Source of the DNA: JAWOFN01 sp046497505 [NCBI: bacterium]
GTDB lineage: Bacteria > Blakebacterota > Blakebacteria > Blakebacterales
Assembly (NCBI GenBank): GCA_046497505.1
Contig: JAWOFN010000012.1
Coordinates: forward strand, 1-25,187
Direction: 5' to 3'
DNA length: 25,187 nucleotides
The notes under the pieces were generated by a model. That model did no database searches. It was not told the DNA's origin and saw nothing but the letters and a program-made list of their open reading frames with translations. This document shows positions 1,891-17,816 of the stretch, one piece after another. The translations under genes and the position numbers were made by a program. Each line of letters starts with the position of its first letter. Positions within the stretch are counted from its first letter, which is position 1.

Positions 1891-1895
1891 CGAAC

Positions 1896-2876
1896 ATGAC
1901 ATTCCCCGACCACCGCCTCCGCCGTCTGCGCCGCACCCGGGCATGGCGGAACCTGACCCGTGAGACGACCCTCACGGTCCACGATTTCATCTATCCCATG
2001 TTCGCCGTCCACGGAGAGGGTGTGGCGGACCCCGTCCCCAGCATGCCGGGCGTCCACCAGTTCAGCGTGGACCGCCTGGTGGAGGACGCCGCCGAGGTGC
2101 ATGCGCTGGGGATCCCGGCCGTCATCCTCTTCGGCATCCCGGCGGAGAAGGACGAGCGGGGAAGCGAAGGGTACGACCCGGAGGGGATCATCCCCACCGC
2201 CATCCGGGCCATCAAGGAGCAGATGCCCGACCTGCTGGTGTGGGCGGATGTGTGCATGTGCGAGTACACCGACCACGGACACTGCGGGATCCTCACCCCC
2301 GAGGGGGAGGTGGACAACGACGCCACCCTCCCCCTGCTGGCCCGGGCCTCTGTGGTGTACGCCGAGGCGGGCGCCGACGCGGTGGCTCCCAGCGACATGA
2401 TGGACGGCCGGGTGGGCGCCATCCGGGAGGCCCTCGACGAGCACGACCTCGCCCACATCCCCATCGTCTCCTACGCGGCCAAGTACGCCTCGGCCTACTA
2501 CGGCCCCTTCCGGGACGCAGCCCACTCCGCCCCCTCCTTCGGGGACCGGCGGGGCTACCAGATGGATCCGCCCAACGCGGACGAGGCCCTCCACGAGGTG
2601 GACCTCGACCTGCAGGAGGGTGCGGACATCGTGATGGTCAAGCCCGCCGGGGCCTACCTGGACATCATCCGCCGGGTGAAGGAGACCTTCGGGGTCCCCA
2701 CTGCGGCCTACCAGGTGAGCGGGGAGTTCAGCCTCATCAAGGCGGCCGCCGAGAAGGGGTGGGTGGACGAGCGCCGGGTGGCCCTGGAGAGCCTGGTGGG
2801 CATCAAGCGCGCGGGCGCCGATATGATCCTGACCTATTTCGCCAGGGACGCGGCCCGCTGGCTGCGGGAGGGATGA
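1896..2876 (+). CDS. hemB: Delta-aminolevulinic acid dehydratase (porphobilinogen synthase)
   Basis: A 326-residue protein of full family length. It condenses two 5-aminolevulinate molecules to porphobilinogen in the cytosol. The metal-binding cysteines are present as Cys120, Cys122 and Cys130 in [14 protein letters not shown], so this is the zinc-type enzyme and not the aspartate-rich magnesium type. The two substrate lysines are Lys196 ([17 protein letters not shown]) and Lys249 ([12 protein letters not shown]). The frame is open further upstream, but ATG 1896 is chosen because AGGAG ends 8 bases before it and the protein then begins like other HemB proteins. The stop overlaps the hemL ATG. 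Confidence 0.97.
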
Positions 2877-4195
2877 ACGACCAGATGAGTGAGCGCAGCG
2901 AGAGCCAGCGACTCTTCGAAGAGGCCGGACGCTGGATGCCCGGGGGGGTCAACAGCCCCGTCCGGGCCTTCGGCAGCGTGGGGGGCACCCCCCTCTTCAT
3001 CGACCGGGCCGAGGCGGCCACGGTCTGGGACGCCGACGGCGGCGCCTACCTGGACTACGTGGGCTCCTGGGGTCCCATGATCCTGGGCCACAACCACCCC
3101 GAGGTGCGGGCCGCCGTGGCCGAGGCCCTGGAACGGGGCACCTCCTTCGGGGCCCCCACCTCGGCCGAGGTCCGCCTGGCCGAACTGGTGGTGCAGATGG
3201 TCCCCTCGGTGGAGGTGGTACGGCTGGTGAACTCGGGGACCGAAGCCACCATGAGCGCCATCCGCCTGGCACGGGCCGCCGCAGGCCGCCCGAAGATCAT
3301 CAAGTTCCGCGGGGGCTACCACGGGCATGCCGACTCCTTCCTGGTGGAAGCGGGCTCGGGGGCCGCCACCCTGGGCGTGCCCTCCAGCCCCGGGGTGACC
3401 GAGGGGACCGCCGCCGACACCCTGGTGGCCGACTTCAACGACCTGCACTCGGTGCGGGCGCAGTTCGAATCCGCCCCGGGATCCGTCGCGGCCGTGATCG
3501 TGGAACCGGTGGCCGGCAACATGGGCTGCGTGCTCCCCGAGGAGGGTTTCCTGGGGGGACTCCGGACCCTCTGTGACGAGCAGGGCGCCCTCCTCATCTT
3601 CGACGAGGTGATGACCGGCTTCCGCCTGGCACCGGGTGGGGCCCAGCAGCGCTTCGGGGTCGACCCCGACCTGACCACCCTCGGGAAGGTCATCGGCGGC
3701 GGGCTCCCGGTGGGGGCGTACGGCGGCCGGGAGGACCTCATGCGCCAGGTCGCCCCCGACGGTCCCGTCTACCAGGCGGGCACCCTGTCAGGGAACCCCC
3801 TGGCCACCGCGGCCGGCATCGCCCAGCTGAGCCGGCTGAAGGAGGACCCCGGGATCTACGAACATCTCGAGGAGATGGGAGTACGGATCGCCGAAGGCTT
3901 CGCTGAGATCATCGCGGAGGGGGAGTATCCCCTCTGCGTCAACCAGGTCGGCTCGATGTTCGCCCTCTATTTCGGGCCGGGACCGGTCACCGACTGGGAG
4001 AGCGCGGCGGCGTGCGATCGGGATGCCTTCACCCGCTACTTCCGGGGCATGCTGGGACAAGGCATATACCTCGCCCCCAGTCCCTTCGAGGCGGGGTTCA
4101 TCTCCGCGTCCCACACCGCAGACGACATCGAGCGGACCCTCTCAGCGGCACGTGCGGCCCTGGATGAGACGTTCCGCCCAGGGAGGGGAGGATGA
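2873..4195 (+). CDS. hemL: Glutamate-1-semialdehyde 2,1-aminomutase
   Basis: A 440-residue PLP enzyme that turns glutamate-1-semialdehyde into 5-aminolevulinate, the last step of the C5 route. Diagnostic stretches are [12 protein letters not shown] near residues 24-35, [37 protein letters not shown] and [11 protein letters not shown]. The PLP lysine is Lys272 in [21 protein letters not shown] 2873 overlaps the hemB stop (ATGA), but its ribosome-binding site lies only 1 base away. ATG 2885 (MSERSES) would give a start more like that of other HemL proteins, with a 13-base spacing; either start is possible. Its presence implies that glutamyl-tRNA reductase (hemA) is nearby, probably upstream of hemC. 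Confidence 0.97.
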
Positions 4196-4202
4196 TCCGG
4201 CC

Positions 4203-5252
4203 ATGACCGACCACATCAACAGGGACCTCCCCCCCTTCCTGGCGGCATGCCGCCGCAAGCCGGTCGAGCGCACGCCGGTGTGGATCATGCGCCAGGCCGG
4301 GCGCTATCTCCCCGAGTATCGCAGGATCCGGGAGGACGTGGACTTCCTGACCCTGACCAAGACCCCCGACCTGGCCGCGGAGGTGACCCTCCAGCCCATA
4401 CGACGCTTCGACCTGGACGCGTCCATCCTCTTCAGCGACATCATGACGCCGGTGGAGGGGATGGGCCTGACCCTCGAGTTCGACCCGGGTCCGGTCATAG
4501 CCGACCCGGTCCGCACACCCTCCGACGTGGAGCGTCTCCGCGTGGCCGACCCCGAGGAGTGCGTACCCTTCGTCATGGAGACCGTGGGCATCCTCCGCCG
4601 TGAGCTCCCCGGACACGTCCCCCTCATCGGGTTCGCCGGGGCCCCCTTCACCCTCTTCTGCTATGCCGTCCAGGGACGGGGCTCCAAGACCTTCGCCGAG
4701 GCGAAGGCCTTCCTCTATGCAGAGCCGGAAGCGGCCCGCAGACTGCTGGCCAAGCTCTCACAGTCCATGACGGCCTACCTGCGCGCCCAGGCCCAGGCGG
4801 GAGCCCAGGCCCTCATGCTCTTCGACTCCTGGGCGGGCATCCTGGGACCGGAGGACTTCCGGGAGTTCGCGCTGCCCGCGGTGGAACGCACCCTCGAGGG
4901 GCTGGCCCCCCTGGGCCTGCCCCTGATCTACTTCCCCAACCAGGGCGCCACCCTGCTGGAGCACGTGCGGGGGCTCCCCGCCGATGTCATCGGCATCGAC
5001 TGGCGTACCCCCCTGGGCACGGCCCGGGGGATCCTGGGGCCGGAGAAGGCCGTGCAGGGGAACCTCGACCCCGCCGCCCTCTTCGCACCGGACGATGCCC
5101 TCAAGAGCCGTATCCGAAAGGTCCTGGAAGAGGCGGGCCCCGCCCCCGGGCACATCTTCAACCTGGGACACGGCATCGAGCGGAACACCGACCCGGCCAA
5201 AGTGGCCCTGCTGGTGGACCACGTACACGAACTGAGCAGTGAGCGAGGCTGA
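4203..5252 (+). CDS. hemE: Uroporphyrinogen decarboxylase
   Basis: A 349-residue cytosolic enzyme that removes four acetate carboxyls from uroporphyrinogen III to give coproporphyrinogen III. The N-terminal signature RTPVWIMRQAGRYLPEYR carries substrate-binding Arg30 and Arg34. The second signature ILFSDIMTPVEGMG carries Asp79, the key catalytic aspartate. Further family stretches are GFAGAPFTLFCYAVQGRGSK and the C-terminal FNLGHGIERNTDP. The frame is open upstream, but ATG 4203 sits 7 bases after the hemL stop with GGAGG 11 bases before it, and gives the normal length. hemN begins 5 bases after its stop. Confidence 0.97.
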   Translation: MTDHINRDLPPFLAACRRKPVERTPVWIMRQAGRYLPEYRRIREDVDFLTLTKTPDLAAEVTLQPIRRFDLDASILFSDIMTPVEGMGLTLEFDPGPVIADPVRTPSDVERLRVADPEECVPFVMETVGILRRELPGHVPLIGFAGAPFTLFCYAVQGRGSKTFAEAKAFLYAEPEAARRLLAKLSQSMTAYLRAQAQAGAQALMLFDSWAGILGPEDFREFALPAVERTLEGLAPLGLPLIYFPNQGATLLEHVRGLPADVIGIDWRTPLGTARGILGPEKAVQGNLDPAALFAPDDALKSRIRKVLEEAGPAPGHIFNLGHGIERNTDPAKVALLVDHVHELSSERG

Positions 5253-5257
5253 TCGAG

Positions 5258-6646
5258 ATGGCTGAGGCCCCCGAGACCGTCAGTGTGGAGACCCTCCGGA
5301 AATTCGACAAGCCGGGCCCGCGATACACCTCCTATCCCACCGCGGTGGAATTCACCGACGAGGTGGGGCTCCAGGAGTACCGGTCGAAGCTTGCCGAGGC
5401 GGACGGACGGGACGAGCCCCTCTCCTTCTACACGCACCTCCCCTTCTGCGAGCATCGATGCCTGTTCTGCGGATGCCACGTGGTCATCACCGAGCACCGG
5501 GATGTGGCCGCGAAGTACCTGGAGTACGTGAAGCAGGAGGTGGAACTGCTCGCCGGCGCCCTCCCGGACAGGCGGCGGATCGCCCAGATGCAGTGGGGCG
5601 GCGGGACTCCCACCTACTTCACCCCCGGCCAGCTGGAGGATTACTATCGCCATCTCACCTCCCGCTTCACCTTCGACGAAGGGGCGGAGATATCCATCGA
5701 GGTGGACCCGCGGGTCACCGGCGAGGACCATCTGCGGGCCCTCAGCGACCTGGGGTTCAACCGGCTCAGCATGGGGGTCCAGGACTTCACCCCCGAAGTG
5801 CAGGAGGCCATCGGCCGCTACCAGACCTTCGAGCAGACCCGGGACCAGATGGCCTTCGCCCGCGAGGTCGGTTTCGAGGAGGGGATCAACCTCGACCTCA
5901 TCTACGGACTCCCCCAGCAGACACCCGAGAGCTTCAACGAGAACCTGGACCAGGTCCTCCAGCTGCGTCCCGATCGGGTGGCGGTCTACTCCTTCGCCTA
6001 CGTACCCTGGATCCGGGGACATCAGCGGAAGATCGACGAGGAGAGCCTCCCCCTCCCCGAGGTGAAACTGGAACTCTATCTCACCGCCATGAACCGCTTC
6101 CTCGAGGCGGGGTACGAACCGATCGGTATGGACCACTTCGCCCTCCCCGAGGACGAACTCTCGGTGGCGGCGCGCGAGCGGCGCCTGCATCGCAACTTCA
6201 TGGGCTACACCACGCAGCCGGCCACGGACATGGTGGCGGTGGGGATCTCCGGCATCGGGGACGTGCGCAGCGCCTTCTTCCAGAACGCCAAGAAGCTGAG
6301 CACCTACTACGAGGAACTGGATGCCCGCCGTCTCCCCGTGGTGAAGGGGTACGTGCTGGATGCCGACGACCGGCTGCGCCAGTACGTGATCAGCCGGATC
6401 ATGTGCGACTTCCGCCTCTCCAAGAAGGAGGTGGGAGAGCGCTTCGGGGTGGACTTCGACGACTACTTCGAGGACAGCCTGAAGGGCCTCAGCGAGCCGA
6501 TCGAGGAGGGCCTGGTGACGATGGACGCGGAGGCCATCACCGTCACCGAGAGGGGACGGCTCTTCGTACGGAACGTCTGCATGGCCTTCGACCGCTACCT
6601 GGCCGAGAAGCAGAAGGACCGGCCCATCTTCTCCCGCACCGTGTGA
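5258..6646 (+). CDS. hemN: Oxygen-independent coproporphyrinogen III oxidase (radical SAM)
   Basis: A 462-residue radical-SAM enzyme that decarboxylates two propionates of coproporphyrinogen III to vinyl groups, giving protoporphyrinogen IX. The [4Fe-4S] cluster motif is Cys64, Cys68 and Cys71, followed by Cys73, in HLPFCEHRCLFCGC. The N-terminal PRYTSYPTAVEF stretch is found in true HemN and is absent from the HemW look-alikes. GGGTPTYF, NRLSMGVQDF and NLDLIYGLPQQT continue the radical-SAM barrel, and the HemN C-terminal domain (VKGYVLDADDRLRQYVISRIMC) is complete. It is the only coproporphyrinogen oxidase visible. A gap of 89 bases, the longest in the operon, separates it from hemH. Confidence 0.97.
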   Translation: MAEAPETVSVETLRKFDKPGPRYTSYPTAVEFTDEVGLQEYRSKLAEADGRDEPLSFYTHLPFCEHRCLFCGCHVVITEHRDVAAKYLEYVKQEVELLAGALPDRRRIAQMQWGGGTPTYFTPGQLEDYYRHLTSRFTFDEGAEISIEVDPRVTGEDHLRALSDLGFNRLSMGVQDFTPEVQEAIGRYQTFEQTRDQMAFAREVGFEEGINLDLIYGLPQQTPESFNENLDQVLQLRPDRVAVYSFAYVPWIRGHQRKIDEESLPLPEVKLELYLTAMNRFLEAGYEPIGMDHFALPEDELSVAARERRLHRNFMGYTTQPATDMVAVGISGIGDVRSAFFQNAKKLSTYYEELDARRLPVVKGYVLDADDRLRQYVISRIMCDFRLSKKEVGERFGVDFDDYFEDSLKGLSEPIEEGLVTMDAEAITVTERGRLFVRNVCMAFDRYLAEKQKDRPIFSRTV

Positions 6647-6660
6647 CCCCCTCCCCCGGC

Positions 6661-6717
6661 GGGCGGACCGGCCGCCCCGGGACGAGCGACCTGGAACGCC
6701 CGGCACGTCCGCCGGGC
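6661..6717 (+). promoter_or_regulatory. Two tandem hairpins in the hemN-hemH gap
   Basis: Two perfect inverted repeats lie between hemN and hemH. The first pairs 6661-6666 with 6672-6677 (6 bp, 5-base loop). The second pairs 6698-6704 with 6711-6717 (7 bp, 6-base loop). Neither is followed by a run of T, so they are not classical terminators. They end 9 bases before the GAGG ribosome-binding site of hemH (6727-6730) and leave it exposed. They might stabilise mRNA ends or separate expression of hemH-hemY from the upstream genes. In such GC-rich DNA, chance repeats are also possible. Confidence 0.35.
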
Positions 6718-6735
6718 AGAGCGAGTGAGGACGCG

Positions 6736-7821
6736 ATGGAGACTGCCGTCGTCGACACCCCCCTGCTGCCCAACGACCGGACCGTCGATTCCGGCCTGGC
6801 CATGGCACGGAACGCTCCCGACCGGGCCCGGGTCGGGGTGCTCCTGCTGAACATGGGGGGACCGGACCGGATCGAGACGATCAAGCCCTTCCTCTACAAC
6901 CTCTTCGGGGACGAGGAGATCATCGACCTCCCCGGCGGGAAGGCGGGGCAGTTCCTGCTGGGCCGGCTCATCGTGAACATGCGCCTGGGTGAGGTGAAGG
7001 AGAACTACCGCAGAATGGGGGGCGGCTCCCCCCAGGTACACTGGACCACCATCCAGATGGAGGGGCTCCAGGAGCGCCTGAACGGGCAGATGGACGATCC
7101 CCCCCGGGTGGGGATGGCCATGCGCTACTGGCACCCCTTCGCCGACGAGGCCCTGCGGGACCTGGGGGAGGCGGGGGTCGAGCACATCGTCTCCCTCACC
7201 CTCTATCCCCACTACACCCGGGCCACCACCGGCACCAGTGAGGACGACCTGGTCGCCGCCCGGGACCGCCTGGGCATGGACGTGCCCATCTCCTTCATCA
7301 GCCACTGGTACGACCAGCCCCGCTACCTCGACCTGTGGGCGGAGAAGGTCCAGGGGGCCCTGGATGCCATGGACCCGGACGTGCGGGAGCGGGTGCAGCT
7401 GGTGGTGAGCGCCCACGGGCTCCCCAGGAAGTTCATCGACCGGGGCGACCCGTACGTGGAGCATATCGAAGCCACCAGGGACGGGGTGCTGGAGCGGCTG
7501 GAGGTTCCCCCCCCCCACCACCTGGGCTTCCAGAGCCGGACCGGACCGGTGAAGTGGATCGGACCGGGGACCGAGGACGTCCTCACCGATCTGGCCTCCC
7601 AGGGGCACGACGCGGTCCTGGTGTGGCCCATCTCCTTCGTCTCCGACCACGTGGAGACCACCTGCGAGGTGGGGATGCTCTTCCGGGACCAGGCGGAGGA
7701 TGCCGGCATCGAACACTACCACGTGGTGCCGCAGTTCAACGATGACCCGGCGTTCCAGGACGTCCTGGCGGACCTGGTGACCGGCCGCATGAAGAACCTC
7801 GATGGGGTGCCCACCCGGTGA
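6736..7821 (+). CDS. hemH: Ferrochelatase
   Basis: A 361-residue protein that inserts Fe2+ into a porphyrin, normally protoporphyrin IX in a pathway like this one. After a variable first 30 residues, VGVLLLNMGGP starts the first lobe. The catalytic histidine is His227 in VVSAHGLPRKFID, and the conserved acid is Glu307 in PISFVSDHVETTCEVG. GFQSRTGPVKWIGP is another family signature. ATG 6736 is preceded by GAGG at a spacing of 5; a later ATG at 6802 (MARNAPDRARVGVLLL) is an alternative start that would remove a non-conserved leader. The gene contains an uninterrupted run of ten C at 7507-7516, encoding part of VPPPHH. The frame is intact across it. Confidence 0.96.
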   Translation: METAVVDTPLLPNDRTVDSGLAMARNAPDRARVGVLLLNMGGPDRIETIKPFLYNLFGDEEIIDLPGGKAGQFLLGRLIVNMRLGEVKENYRRMGGGSPQVHWTTIQMEGLQERLNGQMDDPPRVGMAMRYWHPFADEALRDLGEAGVEHIVSLTLYPHYTRATTGTSEDDLVAARDRLGMDVPISFISHWYDQPRYLDLWAEKVQGALDAMDPDVRERVQLVVSAHGLPRKFIDRGDPYVEHIEATRDGVLERLEVPPPHHLGFQSRTGPVKWIGPGTEDVLTDLASQGHDAVLVWPISFVSDHVETTCEVGMLFRDQAEDAGIEHYHVVPQFNDDPAFQDVLADLVTGRMKNLDGVPTR

Positions 7822-7874
7822 ACCGGGGCGCGGACACCTCGAACACGCACGACTGAGGCAGGAGGCGCGGGAGG

Positions 7875-9323
7875 ATGCAGAGGGTCGCAGTGGTGGGGGG
7901 CGGTATCACGGGGCTGACCACCGCCCTGAAGGTTCGGGACCTGACCCGTGGAGAGGGCCGTGAGACGGAGGTCCTCGTGCTGGAGGCCTCCGACCGGCTG
8001 GGGGGCAACATACGCACCTCCCGTGAGGAGGGCTTCACCATGGAGTGGGGCCCCAACGGCTACCTGGACAACGCCCCCGAGACCTCCGCCCTGGTCGGCC
8101 GCCTGGGTCTGGAGGGACAGATACAGAAGGCGGACGAATCCGCGGCGAAGCGCTACCTCTACCGGGACGGGCAGCTCCACCTCCTCCCCACCGGCCCCCT
8201 CTCCTTCCTCACCTCCCCCGTCCTCTCTCTCCCCGGCAGGCTGCGGGTCTTCCTGGAACCCTTCGCCCGGGGCAGGCCGGAGGACGAGGACGAGACCATC
8301 TACGCGTTCGCCAGCCGGCGCATCGGATCCGAGGCGGCCCGCATCCTCATCGATGCCATGGTGAGCGGGGTCTACGCCGGGGACATCCACGAGCTGAGTC
8401 TGAAGAGCACCTTCCCGAAGATGTACGCCATGGAGTCCGAGCACGGCGGCCTGGTGCGTGCCCTGCTGGCGCGCATGAAGGAGCGCCGGGCCGCGAAGAA
8501 GCGCGTCGCGGCCCTGGAGGCCCGGGGAGATCAGGCGGAGGAGCTGGTCCGGCCGGGCGGTCCGGCCGGACCCGGCGGCACGCTCACTTCCTTCAAGGAC
8601 GGACTGGACACCTGGATCGAGGCCCTGGCCTCCGAACTCGAGAGGTCTTGGCGGCTCAGCAGCCCGGTGACCGCGATCCGCGAGGAGGGCGACCTCTCCG
8701 GCGGCCGATACACCATCGAGATCGGCGGGCGCCGCACCCTGCACGCCGACGCGGTGGTCCTCACCATGCCCGCGCCGAAGGCCGCCCCCTCCCTGCGCAG
8801 CCTGGACGGGGATCTGGCCGCCGAGATCGACGCCCTTCCCACGGCCGGGCTGGCCGTGGTCGCCCTGGGATACGACGAGGCCGACCTGGACGGCGCCCCG
8901 GCCGGGTTCGGGTTCCTGGTCCCCCGGGACCAGGGCATCCGGATCCTGGGCTGTCTCTGGGATTCCAGCATCTTCCCCGGCCGTGCCCCCGGGGGGAAGG
9001 TCCTTCTGCGGGTCATGATCGGCGGGGCCCACGACCCCGGTGCGGTCACCCTCCCGGAGGAGGAACTCCTGGAGACCGTCCGCAGAGAACTGGGGGAGAC
9101 GATGGGTATCGACGCCGAGCCGCTCCTCAGCCGCGTCTTCCGTCATCCCCTGGGCATCGGACAGTACCCGGTAGGGCACCAGGAACGCATGGACCGGATC
9201 CACCGGCACCTGGGACGCCACCCCGGACTCTTCATCGCGGGCAGTTCCTACTACGGTGTCTCCATGAACGCCTGCATCGAGAAGGCCTCCGAACAGGCCC
9301 CGGAGATCGTGACAGCTTTGTAA
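7875..9323 (+). CDS. hemY: Protoporphyrinogen oxidase, FAD-dependent (HemY type)
   Basis: A 482-residue flavoprotein that oxidises protoporphyrinogen IX to protoporphyrin IX. The N-terminal dinucleotide-binding motif is VGGGITGL (residues 7-14), followed by the acidic strand end VLVLEASDRLGGNIRT. The C-terminal FAD-binding stretch GLFIAGSSYYGVSMNACIEKASEQA is typical of HemY. GGAGG-rich sequence directly before ATG 7875 serves as ribosome-binding site. The gap to hemH is 53 bases. HemY can also act as coproporphyrinogen oxidase in Gram-positive bacteria, but an adjacent true hemN and no visible hemQ favour the protoporphyrin route. It is the last gene of the operon. Residues about 200-240 form a charged, Gly/Pro-rich insertion. 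Confidence 0.94.
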   Translation: MQRVAVVGGGITGLTTALKVRDLTRGEGRETEVLVLEASDRLGGNIRTSREEGFTMEWGPNGYLDNAPETSALVGRLGLEGQIQKADESAAKRYLYRDGQLHLLPTGPLSFLTSPVLSLPGRLRVFLEPFARGRPEDEDETIYAFASRRIGSEAARILIDAMVSGVYAGDIHELSLKSTFPKMYAMESEHGGLVRALLARMKERRAAKKRVAALEARGDQAEELVRPGGPAGPGGTLTSFKDGLDTWIEALASELERSWRLSSPVTAIREEGDLSGGRYTIEIGGRRTLHADAVVLTMPAPKAAPSLRSLDGDLAAEIDALPTAGLAVVALGYDEADLDGAPAGFGFLVPRDQGIRILGCLWDSSIFPGRAPGGKVLLRVMIGGAHDPGAVTLPEEELLETVRRELGETMGIDAEPLLSRVFRHPLGIGQYPVGHQERMDRIHRHLGRHPGLFIAGSSYYGVSMNACIEKASEQAPEIVTAL

Positions 9324-9364
9324 TGAAAGGGACCGGTGCGTGGTGGGGGAGCACGAGCTCCGGG

Positions 9365-9394
9365 CTGGCACCCCCGGCCTGCGGGGGCTATCAT
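9365..9394 (+). promoter_or_regulatory. Candidate sigma70-type promoter for the arginine deiminase-like lipoprotein
   Basis: CTGGCA (9365-9370) and TATCAT (9389-9394) resemble -35 and -10 boxes 18 bases apart, about 40 bases before the GTG start at 9432. The spacer contains a perfect 6-bp inverted repeat (9371-9376 with 9382-9387, 5-base loop). The repeat could be an operator or the stem of a hemY terminator without a T run. The rest of the 108-base gap shows nothing else clear. Confidence 0.4.
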
Positions 9395-9418
9395 CCCGCG
9401 TGGACATCGACCCCGACC

Positions 9419-9423
9419 AGGAG
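9419..9423 (+). promoter_or_regulatory. Ribosome-binding site that fixes a GTG start
   Basis: AGGAG stands 8 bases before GTG 9432. It supports that codon over the longer in-frame opening at 9336, because the resulting protein starts directly with a lipoprotein signal peptide. Confidence 0.65.
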
Positions 9424-9431
9424 CCCGACCC

Positions 9432-10847
9432 GTGCGCCCTTCTCGCCGGCATCCCTCCCCCGCTCTCCTCATCCCCCTCGCCCTGCTGCTCCTCTCGTGC
9501 GGCCGACCCGACACGACCGTCCCTCTGGAGCCCGAGGAACCCTATGTGACCCGAGACTGGGCCCCCCTGGAGGCGGTCATCGTCTCCCCCGTCGAGGAAT
9601 ACATCTACCGCTCCTCGGAGATGGGGGGCGGGCTCCCCTTCTTCAGCGTAGGGCTCCCGCCGGGCACGATCCGGGAGCACCGTCAGATGGTGGACATCCT
9701 GGAAAAGGCGGGGGTTCGGACCCTGGAACTGGTGGACCTGCTGGACTCGGCTGTCGCCCACGCACGGCCCGAAGGGGCCCTGGAGAGCTGGCTCCGCACC
9801 GCCTACCCGGCCACCGCTGAGGAGGCCGTCGCCCGTATCGACGAGCTCGACGGCCGAAGCCTCCTCAACCTCCGGGAGGAGCACTTCTACATCCAGGACG
9901 CGGAGGGGGACTTCGCCCCCCTCTTCCACGGCCTCTCCTCCATCTACTGGGCCCGGGACTGGGCCGTCTCCACCCCGAAGGGCATCATCATCGGGGACAC
10001 GCGCAACGGGAACCGGACCCTGGAGAAGGCGTACGCCCGGCTGATCTTCGAGCATGCCGAAGGACTCCGCGAGATCCCGGTGGTACTCGACGCCGCCGAG
10101 GAGGGCGTCACCCTGGACGGAGGGGACGTCATCGTGTTCGGAGAGGGGGAACTGCTCGTGGGCGTCGGATCACGGTCGAGCCGGGAAGCCGCTCCCCTGC
10201 TGGCCCGTGAGCTGGGCATGGACGTATACGCCGTGGCCATGCCCCCGGGAGACCGCCGGACCGGTCTTGACCGGCAGCTGCTCCACCTGGACTCGATGTG
10301 CAACATCGTGGACGACAGCGTGGCGGTCGCGGTGCCCTTCTTCCTCGAGAAGGCATTCGCCGGGGACAACCCCATGGCGGTCATCCTGGGGGGGATCGCG
10401 GAGCAGATGGATCGCTGGCGGGAGGCCGAGGACCCCCTCTACCGTCCCGGCAGCACCGATTACATCCGCACGACCATCGAGGCGATGCCCGAGGTGGGCT
10501 GGGTGACGAGGTACGGAGCGGGGAGCGGGGAGGCCGAGGAACTGGACCTGAAACTGGTGGACTTCCTGCGGGAGCGCGGCTTCCGCATCGTCTATGTGGG
10601 GGGTGAGCAGGGGGAACTACCCCTGGAGCAGTACACCCTCGAGCGGGCCATGTACGAACTGCGCTGGCAGGGCTCCAACGTGGTCCAGCTCCGCCCCGGG
10701 GAGGTCGTCGCCTACCGTCACAACGTCCACACCAACCGGGCCCTCCGGGATGCGGGCATCCGGGTCCGCACCTTCGAGGGAGAGCTGCTGGCCATGCGCA
10801 ACGGCGGGCCCCACTGCCTGCTCATGCCCCTGCTCAGGGGCCCCTGA
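9432..10847 (+). CDS. Predicted lipoprotein of the arginine deiminase / amidinotransferase superfamily
   Basis: With GTG 9432 as start this is a 471-residue protein. Residues 1-22 form a lipoprotein signal (Arg-rich start, then ALLIPLALLLLS) with the lipobox cysteine at 23, so it should be anchored in a membrane facing the periplasm or outside. The mature part has the superfamily's active-site set: WARDWAVSTP (172-181), LDGGDV (228-233), HLDSMCN with His285 and Asp287, and NGGPHC with the nucleophile Cys462. The C-terminal GGPHCLLMPLLR resembles arginine deiminase. LDGGDV instead of the deiminase EGGD resembles dimethylarginine dimethylaminohydrolase. Substrate is therefore open: arginine, a modified arginine, or protein-bound or peptide arginine. 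It has its own candidate promoter and ends in a 16-bp palindrome facing a convergent gene. Confidence 0.82.
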   Translation: MRPSRRHPSPALLIPLALLLLSCGRPDTTVPLEPEEPYVTRDWAPLEAVIVSPVEEYIYRSSEMGGGLPFFSVGLPPGTIREHRQMVDILEKAGVRTLELVDLLDSAVAHARPEGALESWLRTAYPATAEEAVARIDELDGRSLLNLREEHFYIQDAEGDFAPLFHGLSSIYWARDWAVSTPKGIIIGDTRNGNRTLEKAYARLIFEHAEGLREIPVVLDAAEEGVTLDGGDVIVFGEGELLVGVGSRSSREAAPLLARELGMDVYAVAMPPGDRRTGLDRQLLHLDSMCNIVDDSVAVAVPFFLEKAFAGDNPMAVILGGIAEQMDRWREAEDPLYRPGSTDYIRTTIEAMPEVGWVTRYGAGSGEAEELDLKLVDFLRERGFRIVYVGGEQGELPLEQYTLERAMYELRWQGSNVVQLRPGEVVAYRHNVHTNRALRDAGIRVRTFEGELLAMRNGGPHCLLMPLLRGP

Positions 10848-10867: not shown

Positions 10868-12178
10868 TCAGCGCCGCCTCCCGAAGCTCCGAATCTCATC
10901 CAGCCGCGGGTTGACCACCGTGTTGTAGATCGACCCGAACGTATAGCTGAAACCGATGCGTAGGCGGTAGTCGTAGCCGGTCTGCAGGCGCCGGATCCTC
11001 AGGAGGATCTCGTCATCCGAGGCGTCCCGGGCGGGGATGTAGAGCTGGTCGTGGATCTTGGATATGCTGCCGTTCAGGTTCAGGCTGAAGCCCCGGAAGA
11101 TCCGGATGTCCCAGTTGGTGGAGAGGGCCAGCCGGTACTGGTTGATGTCCTCGAAGTAGTGGGAACTCTCCAGGGTGGTCCGGGCGCTCCCCCACGGCTG
11201 CTTCATCTCGTACCCGAGGCTCAGCTCGTGGTTGTAGCGGGTCTCCTCCTTCACACCGAAGATGGTCTCCTCGGTGTAGTTGAAGTACTGCGCCCCCAGC
11301 GAGTACTGGACCACCAGCTGCCGCCGTGTGAACTCGCTGTAGGGGAAGAAGCTGTACTCGAAGGCGGGGGCGAAGCGCAGGGAGTAGTCCTGGTTCACGT
11401 TGGTGGACGAGGAGGTGGAGGCCCGGATACCCGCCGCGTAATGCCCGTCCAGGCTCTTCACCACGGTGAGGTTCCCGTTGAGCCGGTGGGTATGGTACTT
11501 GCGGTCCGCGCCGTCGGAGAGCTCCACCCGCGTCTCGCTGTAGTTCCCGTTGAGCCAGAGAGAGGTCTTCCAGGCGTCGGTCACACGACGGGCCGAGAAC
11601 GAACCGCTCGTCTCGCTCTGGCTCCTCGACTCCTCTCCCGAGAGGGTCCCGTTGAGCCGGGTGGAGAAGACCCAGTAGTCCCAGGGGTCCTCCTCCAGGG
11701 TCCGCTGGGGGCGGGTCGTCCGCTCTCCCTTCACCCCCACGCTCAGCTTCTCCCCCGCCTGCGTCCGCAGGGCGTAGGGGACCAGGCCGAGCTTGAGGAC
11801 CCGGACCAGCTCGGTGCGGACCTCGTCCTCGGTGTCGTCCCGGCCCGAGACGTACATCAGCGTGTCATCGACCCCCTCGAAGCGGCCCTGACCCAGGAAG
11901 TCGAAGGTGTAGGCCTGACCGCCCCCCCCTGCGGACTGGCTGGTGAGCAGGACGTAGACGTCGGCGTCCCACCGGTCCCGCACCCAGTCCACGAACTTCA
12001 CCTCGGTCCGGACGTAGTCGAAGTCGCATCCCCGGATCTTGCAGTCCAGGAAGACCTTCACCGTCTCCGGGACCTCCTCCCCCGCCCCGGCCTGGATCTG
12101 GGCCCGGGCCGGGAGTGCTGCCAGAACCAGCATCCCCAGTCCGATCGTCATGCTGAAGATCCATCGGTACCCCTTCAT
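10868..12178 (-). CDS. Exported protein: unrecognised N-terminal domain plus predicted outer-membrane beta-barrel
   Basis: A 436-residue protein. Residues 1-26 are a Sec signal peptide ending in ARA before Gln27. Residues 38-140 form a compact domain I cannot name. It contains two cysteines (46 and 51, FLDCKIRGCDFDYVRTEV), then FVDWVRDRWDADVYVLLTSQ, a GGGGQAY turn and DDTEDEVR. From about residue 165 to the end the sequence alternates polar and hydrophobic or aromatic residues with short turns (for example TSLWLNGNYSETRVEL and YSLGAQYFNYTEE). This is the pattern of a transmembrane beta-barrel of 12-16 strands. The C-terminus (SFGRRR) lacks the usual final aromatic residue. The start is fixed by AGGAG 6-7 bases before ATG 12178. 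The frame is open further upstream, but that part overlaps the M28 gene. It is the last gene of a four-gene minus-strand series. Confidence 0.8.
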   Translation of the reverse strand: MKGYRWIFSMTIGLGMLVLAALPARAQIQAGAGEEVPETVKVFLDCKIRGCDFDYVRTEVKFVDWVRDRWDADVYVLLTSQSAGGGGQAYTFDFLGQGRFEGVDDTLMYVSGRDDTEDEVRTELVRVLKLGLVPYALRTQAGEKLSVGVKGERTTRPQRTLEEDPWDYWVFSTRLNGTLSGEESRSQSETSGSFSARRVTDAWKTSLWLNGNYSETRVELSDGADRKYHTHRLNGNLTVVKSLDGHYAAGIRASTSSSTNVNQDYSLRFAPAFEYSFFPYSEFTRRQLVVQYSLGAQYFNYTEETIFGVKEETRYNHELSLGYEMKQPWGSARTTLESSHYFEDINQYRLALSTNWDIRIFRGFSLNLNGSISKIHDQLYIPARDASDDEILLRIRRLQTGYDYRLRIGFSYTFGSIYNTVVNPRLDEIRSFGRRR

Positions 12179-12266
12179 CCTGCTCCTGTCGTCGGGGGGG
12201 ACGCGGTATCGGGCTCCCCGCCCCCGTACGATCCGTTCCTGTCCGGCAGTTGGAGTGCGCTCCGGA

Positions 12267-13622
12267 TCAGCGCTTGAAGGCCCGGATGATGCTCGGACGC
12301 CCCTCCGCCCCCAGTGCACCGATCCCGATGACCACGTCGTCGATGTCCTGGTTCGGGAGGGTGATCTGCATGTATGCCTCTCCCCTGCGTTCGATACGCT
12401 CCGCCTCGTCGAACCAGAGATAGCGCTCCCATCGCGGCGCGGTGGTGCTCCGCAGGGCGACCACGTAGCCCTGCACCTCGGGCCCCTGCGCGGGGCGGAA
12501 GAGGAGCTGGGCGTCGTAGCCCTCACCCCTGCCCAGTCGGAGGGGGGCGGGGGCGGAGGGTGCCAGGGCCAGGGTCGCCGCGCATGCCCCGGCGATACGG
12601 GCGGTGTCCATCACCAGCCCCATGTCCACGTTCTCGAAGACATCGTTGTAGGAGTGCTGGTGCTCATAGTCCTCGTTCGCCTCCACCAGGCGGACGCCCG
12701 GGAAGCCCTCGGCGTTGAAGGCGGTATGGTCGCCCCCCCGCCCGAAGCGGTCCCGGCGGAAGATGAGGTCCACGTCCATGCCGGGCACGTATCGCTCACC
12801 CACCGTCTCCACGTAGCGGGCGATCTGCCGGGACTCGGAGTCCTGCGGGCCCTCGCTGAAGAGACGCACGGTGCCCGGCGTGGTCTCGGCACCGCCGCCC
12901 CGCTCCGCGTTCCCGATCATGTCCATGTTCAGGACCGCTTCGATCTCCATCCCCTCCGACCGGGCCTTCTGTGCGAAGAGACGCGCACCCACCAGCCCTT
13001 CTTCCTCTCCCGCCACCGCCATGAAGATCAGCGACTTCGGGAACTCGTAGCCGGAGAACACCCGGGCCAGCTCCATGGCCGCCGCCACGCCTGTGGCGTC
13101 GTCATCCACACCGGGGGCCGGTCGGTCGGGGTCCCGCCTCTCGTAGGGGTCCCCTTCGCGAACGGGGTCGAGGTTGACGGTGTCGTAGTGTCCGGTGAGG
13201 ATGATGTGCCTGCCGCTCAGCTCGGGGTCGGTCCCGGGGAGCACCGCCACCACGTCCATCAGCTCCGTACCCGCGGGCAGCCGTCCCGGGGAATCCTCGT
13301 CGATGACGAAGGGGACCAGCTCGACCTCCAGCCGGTCGCTGTACGAAGCATACTCCTCCCGTATCCACCGCCGCGCCGCGCCGATCCCCCGCACGTCGCT
13401 CTCGGTCTCGGAGAGGGTGTGCCGGGTCTCGAACGACTCCAGCTTCTTCAGGATCGCCGCCACGTTCTCACGGCTGATCTGGGCGAGGATCTCCTCCACC
13501 GTGGGATCGGTCGCGGAGTAACCCGGGGGCAGGGTGTCCATGGGGTCCGGCCCCGAGCAGGCGGCTGCTCCGACCAGGAACATCAGGCCCGCCATCAGGG
13601 TCAGTGTACGGATGCGGTGCAC
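12267..13622 (-). CDS. M28-family zinc metallopeptidase, predicted lipoprotein
   Basis: A 451-residue protein read from GTG 13622. Residues 1-21 are a lipoprotein signal (MHRIRTLTLMAGLMFLVGAAA) and Cys22 is the lipidation site. The peptidase domain carries the complete two-zinc set of family M28: His145 in TGHYDT, an aspartate in GVDDDATG (173-175), the Glu pair in AGEEEG (206-207), Asp234 in LNMDMIGN and His323 in EHQHSYND. M28 enzymes are aminopeptidases or carboxypeptidases acting on short peptides. This one should work in the periplasm or on the cell surface. The last 110 residues, after ALAPSAPAPLRL, form a small beta-rich domain of unknown role. A 24-residue longer reading from ATG 13694 is less likely because it would bury the signal peptide. 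Confidence 0.93.
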   Translation of the reverse strand: MHRIRTLTLMAGLMFLVGAAACSGPDPMDTLPPGYSATDPTVEEILAQISRENVAAILKKLESFETRHTLSETESDVRGIGAARRWIREEYASYSDRLEVELVPFVIDEDSPGRLPAGTELMDVVAVLPGTDPELSGRHIILTGHYDTVNLDPVREGDPYERRDPDRPAPGVDDDATGVAAAMELARVFSGYEFPKSLIFMAVAGEEEGLVGARLFAQKARSEGMEIEAVLNMDMIGNAERGGGAETTPGTVRLFSEGPQDSESRQIARYVETVGERYVPGMDVDLIFRRDRFGRGGDHTAFNAEGFPGVRLVEANEDYEHQHSYNDVFENVDMGLVMDTARIAGACAATLALAPSAPAPLRLGRGEGYDAQLLFRPAQGPEVQGYVVALRSTTAPRWERYLWFDEAERIERRGEAYMQITLPNQDIDDVVIGIGALGAEGRPSIIRAFKR

Positions 13623-13628
13623 GTCGGT

Positions 13629-13634
13629 CTCCTT
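13629..13634 (-). promoter_or_regulatory. Ribosome-binding site that fixes the GTG start of the M28 lipoprotein
   Basis: On the minus strand AAGGAG stands 6 bases before GTG 13622. It decides against the upstream in-frame ATG at 13694 and places the lipoprotein signal at the very N-terminus. Confidence 0.75.
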
Positions 13635-13706
13635 GCATGTGCGGCACGGTCGAACGTTCCCTCCCTTCTTATGCCGCTGGAGGTGTCCGTTCATTCATCC
13701 GTCCGT

Positions 13707-14441
13707 TCACATGGGCCGGATGCGGACCTCGATGCCCTCCTCATCCGCCAGCAGTCGCTTCAATTCCCGGGGGTCGGTCCGGCCGTAGTGGTACGGGTAG
13801 AGGATCCGCGGCCGGAAGGCCCTGGCGGCGTCCGCTGCCATCTCCGGACTCATGGTGTACGGCAGGTTCATGGGGAGGAAGGCGACGTCGATCCCCTCCA
13901 GGGTCTTCATCTCGGGGATGTCCTCCGTGTCCCCCGCCACGTAGACCCGCAGGTCGACGAAGGTGATCACGTAGCCGTTCCCCTCCCCCTTCGGGTGGTA
14001 GGGCTGCCCCTCGCTCCGCATGTGGACGATGTTGTAGGCGGGTACCGCCTCCACCCGCAGGCCCAGGCCCTCCCACCTCTCGCCGTTGGCCAGCACGGTC
14101 TCCCCCTCCAGGTCCTCGGCGCATGGGGGGGCGGCGAGGATGAGCGTGTCCTCCCTGCGGATCTGCGCGACGGCGTCCGGATCGAGGTGGTCGCCGTGGG
14201 CGTGGGTGATGAGGATCAGGTCCGCGTCGGGGAGGACCTCGTAGTCCCCCTCCCTGCTCACCGGGTCGATGTGGATCACCTTGCCCTGCCACTCCATCAT
14301 CAGGGTGCCGTGACCGATGAAGGTGACGGAGAGGTCGCCCTCTCCCGTGGGGATCCGATCGGTGGGCGGGCCCTGTCCCTCCGCATCGCAGGCGGGCAGG
14401 AGCAGTGAGAGGACCAGGAGGATCGGGATGCGGGACCGCAT
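13707..14441 (-). CDS. Metallo-beta-lactamase-fold hydrolase, predicted lipoprotein (UlaG-like)
   Basis: A 244-residue protein with a lipoprotein signal (MRSRIPILLVLSLLLPA) and lipidation at Cys18. The mature domain is a short metallo-beta-lactamase fold of the UlaG/YtnP-like type. FIGHGTLMMEWQGKVIHIDP is the first strand pair, THAHGDHLD (79-87) is the HxHxDH metal motif, VAGDTEDIPEM holds the bridging aspartate (Asp171), and the last ligand is probably His218 in PYHYGRTDP. Such proteins include lactonases and phosphodiesterases, and many have no known substrate. The gene lies 84 bases upstream of the M28 lipoprotein gene and 132 bases downstream of the tricorn-like protease gene on the same strand. 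A GGAAGGAG ribosome-binding site precedes ATG 14441. Confidence 0.9.
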   Translation of the reverse strand: MRSRIPILLVLSLLLPACDAEGQGPPTDRIPTGEGDLSVTFIGHGTLMMEWQGKVIHIDPVSREGDYEVLPDADLILITHAHGDHLDPDAVAQIRREDTLILAAPPCAEDLEGETVLANGERWEGLGLRVEAVPAYNIVHMRSEGQPYHPKGEGNGYVITFVDLRVYVAGDTEDIPEMKTLEGIDVAFLPMNLPYTMSPEMAADAARAFRPRILYPYHYGRTDPRELKRLLADEEGIEVRIRPM

Positions 14442-14573
14442 GACGGGGCTCCTTCCTTCGAAGGGGACAGGGCTGCTGCTGACAGCGGGTCCTCACTCTA
14501 CTACAATCCCCCCGCCGGGTCATCTTCGGCACCACCGCCCTCTCAGAGCGGGCCGTGGACCGGCCGCCGCCTG

Positions 14574-17500
14574 CTACCTCCCCCCGCGGTCGGGAGGCGG
14601 AGGATAGCTGAAGGAACGGTCCGGGTAGTCCGGCGGCGTCGGCACCGGCCTCGGGTCCTCCTTGATCTTCCGCAGCAGGTGCCGGATGGCGGTCCGAAGC
14701 TGGGCATCCTCCCCGTTGAAGGTCGCGTGGGGGAGGTTGTCCACCTCGATATCGGGGACCACCCCCACCTGCTCGATGAGCCACTCCGACTCCTCTCCGT
14801 AGACCCCCATCATAGGGGCCCGGGCCAGCCCGCCGTCGCTCAGGCGGTTCCTGCTGGAGAGCCAGATCTCCCCGCCCCATGTGCGCATCCCGATGACCTC
14901 GCCCAGCCCCAGGCGGCGGAAACCCTCGGCGAACGCCTCCCCGTCGGAGGCGGTCTCCTGGTCCACCAGCACCACCATGTGCCCCCGGAAGGCGTACTGC
15001 ATGTTCCAGGTGGGTTCCCCCACCCGCTCCTTCCAGTACATCCATGCCTGCCGGAGCAGGTCGTTCAGGATGAAGGAGTCGATGTTCCCGCCGTTGTTCT
15101 GCCGGACGTCGATGATCAGCCCCTGGCGGTCGAAGACCGGGTAGAACTGCCGGTACCACGCCTCGATGTCCCCCGAGCCCATGGCCCGAAGGTGCACATA
15201 GCCGATCCTCCCCTCCGAGGCCTCCTCCACCTCCTGACGCCGGGTATACTCCCAGTCGCTGTAGCGCAGTCCGTAGCCGCTGCGGGCGGGCTCTACGACG
15301 ACCTCCCGGGTCTCCCCGTCCTCCCCGGAGGCCAGGGTCAGCAGCACCTGGCGCCCCGCTTGGTTGCGCAGCAGCATCCCGATGTCCGTCACCTCGAGCG
15401 TGGACACCCCGTTCACCGCCCGGACGACGTCCCCCTCCTCCACTTCGAGGTAGGGGTCGGCCAGGGGGGAGGCCTCCTCGGGGTAGTCCGGGTCGGTGCG
15501 GTAGATATGGTCGATGCGGTAGCCACCGGCATCCGGGTCTCGGAAGAGGCGGGCCCCCAGCGAGGCGATCCCGATGTCGTCCTCCCCCCTCCGCACGTCC
15601 CCGCCCCGCACGCTGGTATGCAGGGCAGAGAGCTCCCCCACCACCCTGCCGATCAAATCATTCAGCTCCTCACGGGTGGTGACCCGCTCCACCAGGGGGA
15701 GATACTTCTCCCGCACCTCCTCCCAATCCACACCGTGCATACCGGGGTCGTAGAACCAGTCGCGTTCCAGCCGCCAGGCGTCGATGAAGATCTGGCGCCA
15801 GTCCTCCCGGACGTCGATGGAGAACATCCAGTCGCTCAGGTCCACCCGCCCCTTCGAGAGGTCCGCCTTCGCGGCCCGTGCGGCGGCGACGATCAGGTCA
15901 TCCCCCCGGCGTATCAGCAGCTTCTTCCCGTCCATGGAGAGTTCGGCGGAGCGGATCCCCTCCGCCGCGGTCACCGGCTGGGGATCCTCGTTGTCCAATT
16001 CGAGGGCCTTGAGTGCCGTCCCGCCATCGCGGTCGAGCCAGAAGAGGACGTCCTCGGAGAGGCTCAGACCGCTGTGGCTGCCCGCGGGGACCGGGACCCG
16101 CTCCTGCCGGGAGAGCAGCCCCTCCGTCTCGATCTCCACGTCCTCCCCTGACCCGGCCGGGCCCTGGCCCTCCTCCTCGACACACAGCTCGTCGTCGGGG
16201 CGGAAGGGGGAACGCAGTCCGGGTCTGAGCGCGGTGTGGTAGATCTCCATGGGGCGCTCGAAGTAGGGCTTCGGGGCCCTCGGTCCCCAGGGGCTCCCCA
16301 CCTCCGAGCGCAGGTTCCGGTCGGAGACGAAGTAGATGAAGCCCCCCTGCCGGTCCCAGGCAGGACTGTAGCTGTTGACCCGGTCGCTCGTGAGGGGATG
16401 CACCTCCTCCTCCCGGACATCGTAGAGCAGGATCCGGGTGAACCGGTTGGGAGCGGTCTTCTCGAAGGCGATCCACCGGGAATCCGGGGACCAGGCGATG
16501 TCGCCCACCCCGTTGCGGTCCGTGGTGACCCGCACGGCCTGCCCGCCCTTCAGCTCCTTCACCCAGAGGTCGCGGTTGTTGTCGGTCCAGGCGAAACGGG
16601 AACCGTCCGGGCTGGGATGGGGACGGAAGCGGAGGATCTCCCCCCCGGAGGTGAGGGCCTCCTCCTCCCCCACCCCGTCGGCGGGGAGGGTGACGAACTC
16701 CAGTTCCCCCGTCTCGTCCGAGAGGGCCAGCACCCGCTCCCCGTCCGCGGTGAAGACCGCGTCGCGGTAACGCACCCCCTCCTTCCGGGATACGCGGACC
16801 AGCCGCCCCTGCCCGGCCGGGGCGGTGAAAAGACGTCCACGGGCGGTGAGCACCACGCTCTCACCCTCCGGGTGGAGGGCCGCCGAGGTCAGGTAGTCCA
16901 GGGGGTCCTTTACCCACCGCTCCCGGAGCTGTTCGAAGTCGGAGGCCAGGGTCACCGGGATCCTCGAGGTGTCCCCCGTATCGATATCGTACCGCCACAG
17001 GCCCGCCCCGGCCGTGTAGACGATCCGACCATCCGAGAGGGCGGGGTCCCGCACGTCCCACCCGCTGTGCCGTGTGTGCTGACGCACATCGCGCCCGGCA
17101 GGGTCCATCGACCAGATGTTCATGGTCCCGTCCCGGTCGCTCACGAAGTAGACCCGTCCCCCCCACCAGAGGGGGGAGTGGCTCTCCCCACGGTACGATC
17201 CGGTGAGCTCGACCGCTTCGGCATCCCCCTCGCCGAACCTCCAGACATCGCGGGCCGTGCCCCCCGTGTACCGTTTGGTCACGTTGTTGTGAAAGGCGGG
17301 ACGGACGAAGAAGAGGGTGCGCCCATCATCGTCCCAGGCCCCCTCGGTGGCGGTGCTCAGGGGTACCAGCTCCCGGATATCCTCTTCGGTGTCGAGGAGG
17401 ACCATCTGGGGGAGGGGGAGCGTGGCGTAGTGGCTGGTCGTGTAGGCCAGCCGGCCGTCCGGGGTCCAGGCCGCGGCCTGTGAGGTCTCGGGTTCCCAGG

Positions 17501-17816
17501 TCCTGCGTACCGGCATCCCGCCGGTGAGGGACATGGTGTACACCTCCGCGGGCCCCTCGTAGGTGGCCGTGAAGGCCACCGTGCTCCCGTCGGGGGAGAT
17601 GACCGGGGAGTGCTCGGTCTCGGCGTGGGTGGTGAGTCGGCGGGCCAGGCCGCCTGTGATCGGCACCAGCCAGAGGTCCCCCTCGGCCGTGAAGACCACC
17701 TGGTCTCCGTGGACCGCCGGGTCCTGGTAGAACCCCTCCACCCCGCCCTGCTGGGCGACGGCGGCGCCGGGTGCGAGGAGGAGGACGAAGAGGAGGATGG
17801 GGAAGAGGCGTCGCAT
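14574..17816 (-). CDS. Tricorn-like S41 protease with beta-propeller and PDZ domains, secreted
   Basis: A 1080-residue protein with a Sec signal peptide (cleavage probably after AAVA, residue 21). Residues about 25-300 and 305-660 carry repeated beta-propeller blades of TolB/WD40-like type (SPVISPDGSTVAFTA, PHPSPDGSRFAWTDN, IAWSPDSRWIAFEK). Residues 670-745 are the tricorn core, with His733 in SALHTSVRGGD. A PDZ domain follows at about 748-845. The S41 protease domain (865-1050) has the nucleophile Ser958 in ETASDGEAFAEGF and a GVVPDIEVDN stretch near a likely catalytic glutamate. In archaea tricorn degrades peptides in the cytosol. The signal peptide here argues for a periplasmic peptide-degrading enzyme. 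It is the first gene of the minus-strand series with two M28/MBL-type hydrolases downstream, and has a good candidate promoter. Confidence 0.93.
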   Translation of the reverse strand: MRRLFPILLFVLLLAPGAAVAQQGGVEGFYQDPAVHGDQVVFTAEGDLWLVPITGGLARRLTTHAETEHSPVISPDGSTVAFTATYEGPAEVYTMSLTGGMPVRRTWEPETSQAAAWTPDGRLAYTTSHYATLPLPQMVLLDTEEDIRELVPLSTATEGAWDDDGRTLFFVRPAFHNNVTKRYTGGTARDVWRFGEGDAEAVELTGSYRGESHSPLWWGGRVYFVSDRDGTMNIWSMDPAGRDVRQHTRHSGWDVRDPALSDGRIVYTAGAGLWRYDIDTGDTSRIPVTLASDFEQLRERWVKDPLDYLTSAALHPEGESVVLTARGRLFTAPAGQGRLVRVSRKEGVRYRDAVFTADGERVLALSDETGELEFVTLPADGVGEEEALTSGGEILRFRPHPSPDGSRFAWTDNNRDLWVKELKGGQAVRVTTDRNGVGDIAWSPDSRWIAFEKTAPNRFTRILLYDVREEEVHPLTSDRVNSYSPAWDRQGGFIYFVSDRNLRSEVGSPWGPRAPKPYFERPMEIYHTALRPGLRSPFRPDDELCVEEEGQGPAGSGEDVEIETEGLLSRQERVPVPAGSHSGLSLSEDVLFWLDRDGGTALKALELDNEDPQPVTAAEGIRSAELSMDGKKLLIRRGDDLIVAAARAAKADLSKGRVDLSDWMFSIDVREDWRQIFIDAWRLERDWFYDPGMHGVDWEEVREKYLPLVERVTTREELNDLIGRVVGELSALHTSVRGGDVRRGEDDIGIASLGARLFRDPDAGGYRIDHIYRTDPDYPEEASPLADPYLEVEEGDVVRAVNGVSTLEVTDIGMLLRNQAGRQVLLTLASGEDGETREVVVEPARSGYGLRYSDWEYTRRQEVEEASEGRIGYVHLRAMGSGDIEAWYRQFYPVFDRQGLIIDVRQNNGGNIDSFILNDLLRQAWMYWKERVGEPTWNMQYAFRGHMVVLVDQETASDGEAFAEGFRRLGLGEVIGMRTWGGEIWLSSRNRLSDGGLARAPMMGVYGEESEWLIEQVGVVPDIEVDNLPHATFNGEDAQLRTAIRHLLRKIKEDPRPVPTPPDYPDRSFSYPPPPDRGGR

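Follow-up and report, generated by a model that had tools for sequence, protein, structure and literature searches.

Arginine deiminase (ADI) is an enzyme of the cytosolic arginine pathway, and the streptococcal enzyme is, to our knowledge, canonical ArcA without a signal. PPAD, the peptidyl-arginine deiminase of Porphyromonas gingivalis, is exported by the type IX route, and human DDAH1, a dimethylarginine dimethylaminohydrolase (DDAH), carries an LDGGD motif. ADI has nevertheless been reported outside the cell in Streptococcus cristatus, S. intermedius and Granulicatella elegans (PMC4076886, PMC6491454), so the statement in the preliminary description of this locus that known ADIs are cytosolic is too broad for these organisms. 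The available text of the extracellular-ADI reports (PMC4076886, PMC10608802, PMC6491454) mentions neither a signal peptide nor a lipid anchor on any ADI, and the excerpts retrieved on extracellular or exported ADI contain no ADI-family clade with export signals of its own. The PAD_porph/agmatine deiminase family does include exported penteins, namely PPAD, which in the sections seen has a Cys nucleophile, contacts the C-terminal carboxylate through two arginines and has Trp127 three residues before Asp130 (PMC4893104), and Agu2A' (PA14_48450), described in the part consulted as a Tat-exported peptidyl-arginine/agmatine deiminase-like protein of Pseudomonas aeruginosa PA14 (PMC6085387). In Mycoplasma arginini ADI, the reference for our residue numbering, Leu44, Asn155, Arg180, Arg232 and Gly392 are reported to bind the amino and carboxylate groups of the substrate (PMC3474736, in excerpt). 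For lactic acid bacteria, a citrulline-only short ADI pathway (exchanger ArcE, ArcB and ArcC) acting on external citrulline has been proposed (PMC5300872, in excerpt).

The window (the whole 25,187-nucleotide stretch analysed) contains a GTG-initiated frame of 471 amino acids whose product is securely predicted to be an exported ADI-family lipoprotein (Table 1). Membership of the Pfam family ADI (PF02274) was clear (E 1.8e-36; 126.4 bits against a cut-off of 22.8), in agreement with the superfamily assignment and complete set of catalytic motifs first noticed in the sequence. The match to the ArcA equivalog model TIGR01078 reached 111.1 bits against a cut-off of 489.1, and the protein further departs from ArcA in its predicted lipoprotein signal and in three pocket residues (Asn155 to Ser, Phe158 to Trp and Glu213 to Asp), while Arg180 and Arg232 are kept. 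The structural model (pLDDT 84.6, pTM 0.84) retrieved ADIs at Foldseek ranks 1–26, and in VIA-align its best partner was ADI 1lxy (Z 39.0, 370 aligned residues, rmsd 3.0), with the eight listed ADI entries at Z 34.8–39.0. The fold thus shared with ArcA (1lxy, 1rxx, 4bof, 4e4j) includes the helical insert, and the Cys-His-Asp/Glu catalytic set is common to both, at a sequence identity of 19–24% in the VIA-align alignments. The next best fold was the 2-nitroimidazole nitrohydrolase NnhA (9azg, 9b01; Z 27.3), which differs in aligning over only 286 residues with a sequence match confined to the Cys region, followed by ArgZ (26.8), DDAH (24.0–26.1) and, at Z 18.9–19.6, agmatine deiminases and two putative deiminases.

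Table 1. Features in and around the exported ADI gene; residues in brackets are the M. arginini ADI equivalents.
Feature	Coordinates	Strand	Basis or remark
TetR-type regulator, then hemD, hemB, hemL, hemE, hemN, hemH and protoporphyrinogen oxidase in a row	437-9323	+	
Weak sigma-70-like promoter match, 9 of 12	9365..9394	+	Consensus match only; one found, shuffles mean 0.1; may be chance
Shine-Dalgarno-like AGGAG	9419..9423	+	8 nt before GTG 9432
Exported ADI-family lipoprotein gene, 471 aa (predicted)	9432..10847	+	Frame, Pfam, fold, N-terminal pattern
Lipoprotein signal peptide, residues 1-22	9432..9497	+	Predicted by pattern; 10 relatives also with export-type N-terminus
Lipobox Cys23 (LLSC), predicted lipidation site, +2 residue Gly	9498..9500	+	Pattern
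Ser170 (Asn155, substrate alpha-group contact)	9939..9941	+	Alignment; PMC3474736 (excerpt)
Trp173 (Phe158)	9948..9950	+	Alignment
Asp176 (D161, guanidinium)	9957..9959	+	Alignment
Arg195 (R180, carboxylate)	10014..10016	+	Alignment; PMC3474736 (excerpt)
Asp229 of LDGGD (E213)	10116..10118	+	Alignment
Arg248 (R232, carboxylate)	10173..10175	+	Alignment; PMC3474736 (excerpt)
His285-Leu-Asp287 (H269, D271)	10284..10292	+	Alignment
Cys462 nucleophile (C398) in GGPHC	10815..10817	+	Alignment
Frame without Pfam/NCBIfam match, signal-like start inside, outer-membrane type by eye	10868-12526	-	Convergent with ADI gene
M28 peptidase with its own lipobox (by eye)	12270-13694	-	Pfam
Metallo-beta-lactamase-like lipoprotein (signal by eye)	within 12270-17816	-	Downstream of ADI gene
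Tricorn/S41 peptidase with PDZ, signal peptide by eye	14577-17816	-	Pfam
Further M28 peptidase, signal-like start	21071-22618	+	Pfam

Relatives were first collected by a scan of genome contigs with six peptide words, which gave seven stretches and three loci, all three from Acidobacteria MAGs. Further relatives were sought in genomes of the phylum of these loci, wider coverage consisting of that one scan plus plasmid, phage and viral collections. Overlapping draws of phylum genomes gave exported-ADI hits in 5 of 199, 1 of 162, 3 of 38 and 2 of 9 genomes (the last three draws being classes), in 6 of 396 phylum genomes and in 3 of 142 in the class of genome G439. In total we found 10 relatives in nine genomes, with 35–56% identity to the window protein, one genome (G439) carrying two of them, loci L035 and L036. 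Within the collections covered, members were few and confined to this phylum; tblastn against plasmids and phages gave only distant ADI-type places (identity at most 32.2% among the matches listed), and none of six pattern matches in the viral contig scan was confirmed. A profile built from nine members scored these same nine at 603–796 bits and every other ADI-like frame at 131 bits or less, L047 and L048 (partial frames of the same genes) being left out of the comparison, and two members found later and absent from the profile scored 570 and 560 bits. Five further profile matches (L029, L032, L034, L053 and L054), the frames of which run into unrelated sequence, were placed in neither table nor tree.

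All exported members fell into a single clade (100/99) when 36 proteins were placed in a tree; its stem is long (1.26), its sister group consists of 13 canonical ADIs (94/96), and 12 short frames branch separately. The trees were built with the leaders of exported members removed and without L019, which a contig end truncates, or five frames of the short type (L021, L022, L028, L030 and L031). For the short frames the best NCBIfam match was a dimethylargininase model, at scores under its cut-off (all 10 of one scan, and L061 of the other two). Judged from their sequences, the exported ADIs are a small separate branch of arginine deiminases, every member found having a predicted export signal.

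These results bear on the proposal that the protein carries a mixed signature, LDGGDV as in DDAH and GGPHC as in deiminases, and on the reading of the window protein as a DDAH. Its LDGGD motif and core pentein fold are indeed shared with DDAH (1h70, 2c6z), and there is a weak match to the DDAH model PF19420 (19.2 bits, under the cut-off of 23). However, the match to the NCBIfam dimethylargininase model NF045660 was only 20.4 bits against 340, the fold comparison gave Z 39.0 to ADI versus at most 26.1 to DDAH, whose alignments span 243–261 residues and so lack the ADI insert, and the tree sets the protein beside ADI on a branch apart from the dimethylargininase-like short frames. The motif itself varies inside the exported clade, with LDGGD in seven of the 11 members and EGGD in the other four, while Glu stands at the E213 position of all 14 canonical ADIs; since the four Glu members lie on two early branches, the simplest account is that the Asp of LDGGDV originated inside the clade. 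GGPHC stood as a deiminase motif, being an ordinary ADI motif (as are GGGHC and GGPRC), and is not part of a mosaic. The apparent DDAH/ADI mosaic is, as far as these comparisons indicate, an ADI with a single Glu-to-Asp change and not a trace of DDAH ancestry. We consider a DDAH identity very improbable and rejected it on the profile scores, fold Z values, tree and short-frame matches together.

The N-terminus read from GTG 9432, MRPSRRHPSPALLIPLALLLLSC continuing with GRP, has a basic n-region, a hydrophobic core (maximum mean Kyte-Doolittle 2.75 over 12 residues) and then, by a PROSITE-like pattern, a lipobox LLSC, the arrangement expected of a bacterial lipoprotein. An export-type N-terminus was present in all 11 clade members (the window protein and 10 relatives), comprising seven lipoboxes (window, L003, L007, L008, L009, L071 and L072), three ordinary signal peptides (L001, L002 and L035) and one twin-arginine signal, RRQFLK (L036). 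The lipobox pattern matched four of the nine members scored, L009 (LPAC) was recognised by a relaxed pattern only, and the lipoboxes of L071 and L072, like the ordinary and Tat signals, were judged by eye. Hydrophobic maxima ranged from 1.78 to 3.25 in the exported members and from 0.32 to 1.60 in 14 canonical ADIs (from the same phylum or plasmids), none of which had an export-type N-terminus; the start of each canonical ADI had been set to the start codon closest upstream of the core motif, which by itself accounts for part of the shortness of their leaders. In a fairer control, reading in frame 45 codons upstream (20 for L025), 13 of the 14 canonical ADIs stayed at or below 1.49, the remaining one (L066) reaching 2.56 in a hydrophobic stretch that is followed by a stop codon.

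A cytosolic ADI starting at GTG 9546, the hydrophobic stretch being an artefact of reading, would have GAGGA upstream of an in-frame start and an N-terminus resembling those of canonical ADIs. We regard this as scarcely credible: an in-frame export signal occurs at the same place in all 11 members despite unlike leader sequences, and codon-position GC is coding-like over 9432–9545 (0.79/0.55/0.79) but not over 9336–9431 (0.91/0.84/0.50). Because leader sequences differ among members and fall into three kinds, export is the conserved feature and not a chance hydrophobic run. The lipoprotein signal originally proposed on GTG 9432 is thus supported by the Cys23 lipobox, the upstream AGGAG and the clade-wide pattern, and no homologue lacking a signal peptide was found among the relatives.

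Asp161, Glu213, His269, Asp271 and Cys398 have catalytic roles in M. arginini ADI; four of them (D161, H269, D271 and C398), together with R180, are kept in all 11 exported members. The Asn155 position, occupied by Asn in all 14 canonical ADIs, is Ser in seven exported members, Trp in two, and Ala and Thr in one each, and the Phe158 position, Phe in 14 of 14 canonical ADIs, is Trp in eight and Tyr in three. R232 is kept in eight of the 11. Both carboxylate arginines are present in the window protein, which fits a free or C-terminal arginine as substrate and would argue against an internal peptidyl arginine. A subclade of three members (L035, L071 and L072, the loci of G439, G542 and G526) has Cys or Met in place of Arg232 and Ala or Trp in place of Asn155 with the catalytic residues kept, and probably acts on a different guanidino substrate.

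The changed pocket raises two alternatives to free arginine. One is a peptidyl-arginine deiminase acting on the C-terminal arginine of peptides freed by exported peptidases, as PPAD does with gingipain. Predicted export and the exported peptidase genes downstream in the window accord with it, the counterparts of R180 and R232 could bind the carboxylate of a C-terminal residue, and Asn155 is replaced by a small Ser and Phe158 by Trp; like PPAD (PMC4893104, in excerpt), the window protein has two arginines for the terminal carboxylate, and its guanidinium-binding Asp is preceded by a Trp at a distance of three residues. The two nevertheless belong to different families: fold and sequence are those of ADI and not PAD_porph, no PF04371 match was listed at E up to 1 (HMMER filters dropping most matches above 0.1), the ADI helical insert is kept, and the Ig-like and C-terminal domains of PPAD are absent, a lipoprotein signal being present instead. 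A clear peptidase lies directly beside the gene in only one of 10 relatives among the flanks annotated. This reading seems to us unlikely. The other alternative is that the enzyme, outside the cytoplasm, has a guanidino substrate different from arginine, be it methylarginine, agmatine, canavanine or an antibiotic of guanidino type; it draws on the replacement of N155 and F158 in 11 of 11 members and of E213 by Asp in seven, on the three members without R232, which probably lack a full carboxylate clamp, and on the variety of superfamily substrates, which judging by the molecule names of structure entries include 2-nitroimidazole. Against this, both carboxylate arginines and a complete catalytic set are present in the window protein, and we take such a substrate to be distinctly unlikely for it. 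With both carboxylate-binding arginines kept, free L-arginine is the most likely substrate.

Among exported deiminases, Agu2A' is likewise an exported pentein, and a Tat signal recurs in clade member L036, but by name it is of the agmatine deiminase/PAD_porph type. The oral streptococcal and G. elegans enzymes resemble the predicted product in being ADI outside the cell, a likeness drawn from description and not sequence, and differ in that the accessible text of their reports names no signal or lipid anchor (PMC4076886, PMC6491454).

Our preferred reading, to which we give about an even chance, is that the exported, lipid-anchored ADI deiminates arginine outside the cytoplasm and that the citrulline is imported and passed to ArcB and ArcC inside. 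Cleavage at Cys23 would leave the protein lipid-anchored outside the cytoplasm, where hydrolysis of the arginine guanidino group, with a thiouronium intermediate on Cys462 as for ADI, would yield citrulline and ammonia. Citrulline would then be taken up and, in carriers with ArcB and ArcC, could be converted to ornithine, carbamoyl phosphate and ATP, the net result being an arginine deiminase pathway with its first step outside. A fuller version, in which this split pathway belongs to an exported ADI clade separate from canonical arcA and the Arg232-less subclade has moved to a new guanidino substrate, is possible but doubtful.

Canonical-type arcA, judged by score and frame length, was absent from the PF02274 matches in seven carrier genomes, which are fragmented MAGs, several in small contigs, so that the gene may lie in missing sequence. 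Carbamate kinase (ArcC) exceeded its cut-off in six of the seven carriers tested (G526 and G542 being left out), compared with 131 of 396 genomes in the phylum draw; the seventh, G001, the genome of the nearest relative, gave no arcC match. Within the draw, six of six carriers had ArcC as opposed to 125 of 390 others (Fisher p 0.0012; 0.006 with G001 added), and at a looser E of 1e-60 the number of phylum genomes rose to 213 of 396 (p 0.023). This enrichment is suggestive only, as few classes are represented, carriers are not independent and thresholds were chosen afterwards. An ornithine carbamoyltransferase over the TIGR00658 cut-off adjoins arcC in all six arcC-positive carriers, in each of which arcC and the exported gene are on different contigs. 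Among the nine genomes of the class of G072, G004 and G020 have canonical arcA 23–32 bases from arcC, and neither yielded an exported ADI. In G011, G002 and G439 (L082, L084 and L085) the ornithine carbamoyltransferase and carbamate kinase genes have as their neighbour a conserved gene starting GAAGRDFHNFN, the L082 copy of which has no NCBIfam match at 1e-20.

Several observations weigh against the split pathway. With Ser at Asn155 the alpha-group contact of the window protein must be unlike that of ADI, and Asp at E213 together with Trp173 could mean another substrate. ArcC is common in the phylum, lacking in G001 and, where present, on a separate contig, and a permease occurs near the gene only in two close relatives (G072 and G093), no citrulline importer having been identified. 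If the preferred reading is true, some bacteria would be built to deiminate arginine before uptake, with ammonia released outside and citrulline taken in, a meaning that draws on the three kinds of export signal, the changed pocket and the lack of a cytosolic ADI seen alongside. Extracellular citrullination by bacteria would then have a source other than the PPAD family, and the clade would supply natural exported ADI sequences to study.

Neighbouring genes differ among the relatives, within the flanks resolved. The heme cluster on the same strand upstream, whose end is 108 bases from the ADI start, was not considered a partner, no heme gene being found among the annotated flanking frames of relatives; a terminator was sought and none was found. 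The secreted peptidases to which the preliminary description drew attention are real (M28, tricorn and M28), but each is either encoded on the opposite strand or distant from the gene, and they are not conserved as neighbours. The peptidase link was accordingly rejected as a conserved feature, the one clear adjacent peptidase among the annotated flanks of 10 relatives being that of L036 (1246-2667, minus strand), where an M24 aminopeptidase P-like gene, its start signal-like by eye, comes directly after the ADI gene. The flank L062, cut by a contig end, has a beta-propeller gene with weak S9/DPPIV N-terminal matches. Other flanks with Pfam matches held PSD1/cytochrome and phosphodiesterase-like genes (L065), an RND pump (L002), DUF5995 (L003), TPR and DeoC (L064), ARPP-1 and a beta-propeller (L087) and a TonB receptor (L088). 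In G072 and G093 a second, cytosolic-type pentein without a signal comes right after the lipoprotein ADI (L061:1825-2787 and L062:2730-3680, both plus strand), with an amino acid permease further on, on the other strand. This second pentein has ETACC in place of EGGD and, in its L061 copy, a weak dimethylargininase score of 92 bits against a cut-off of 340.
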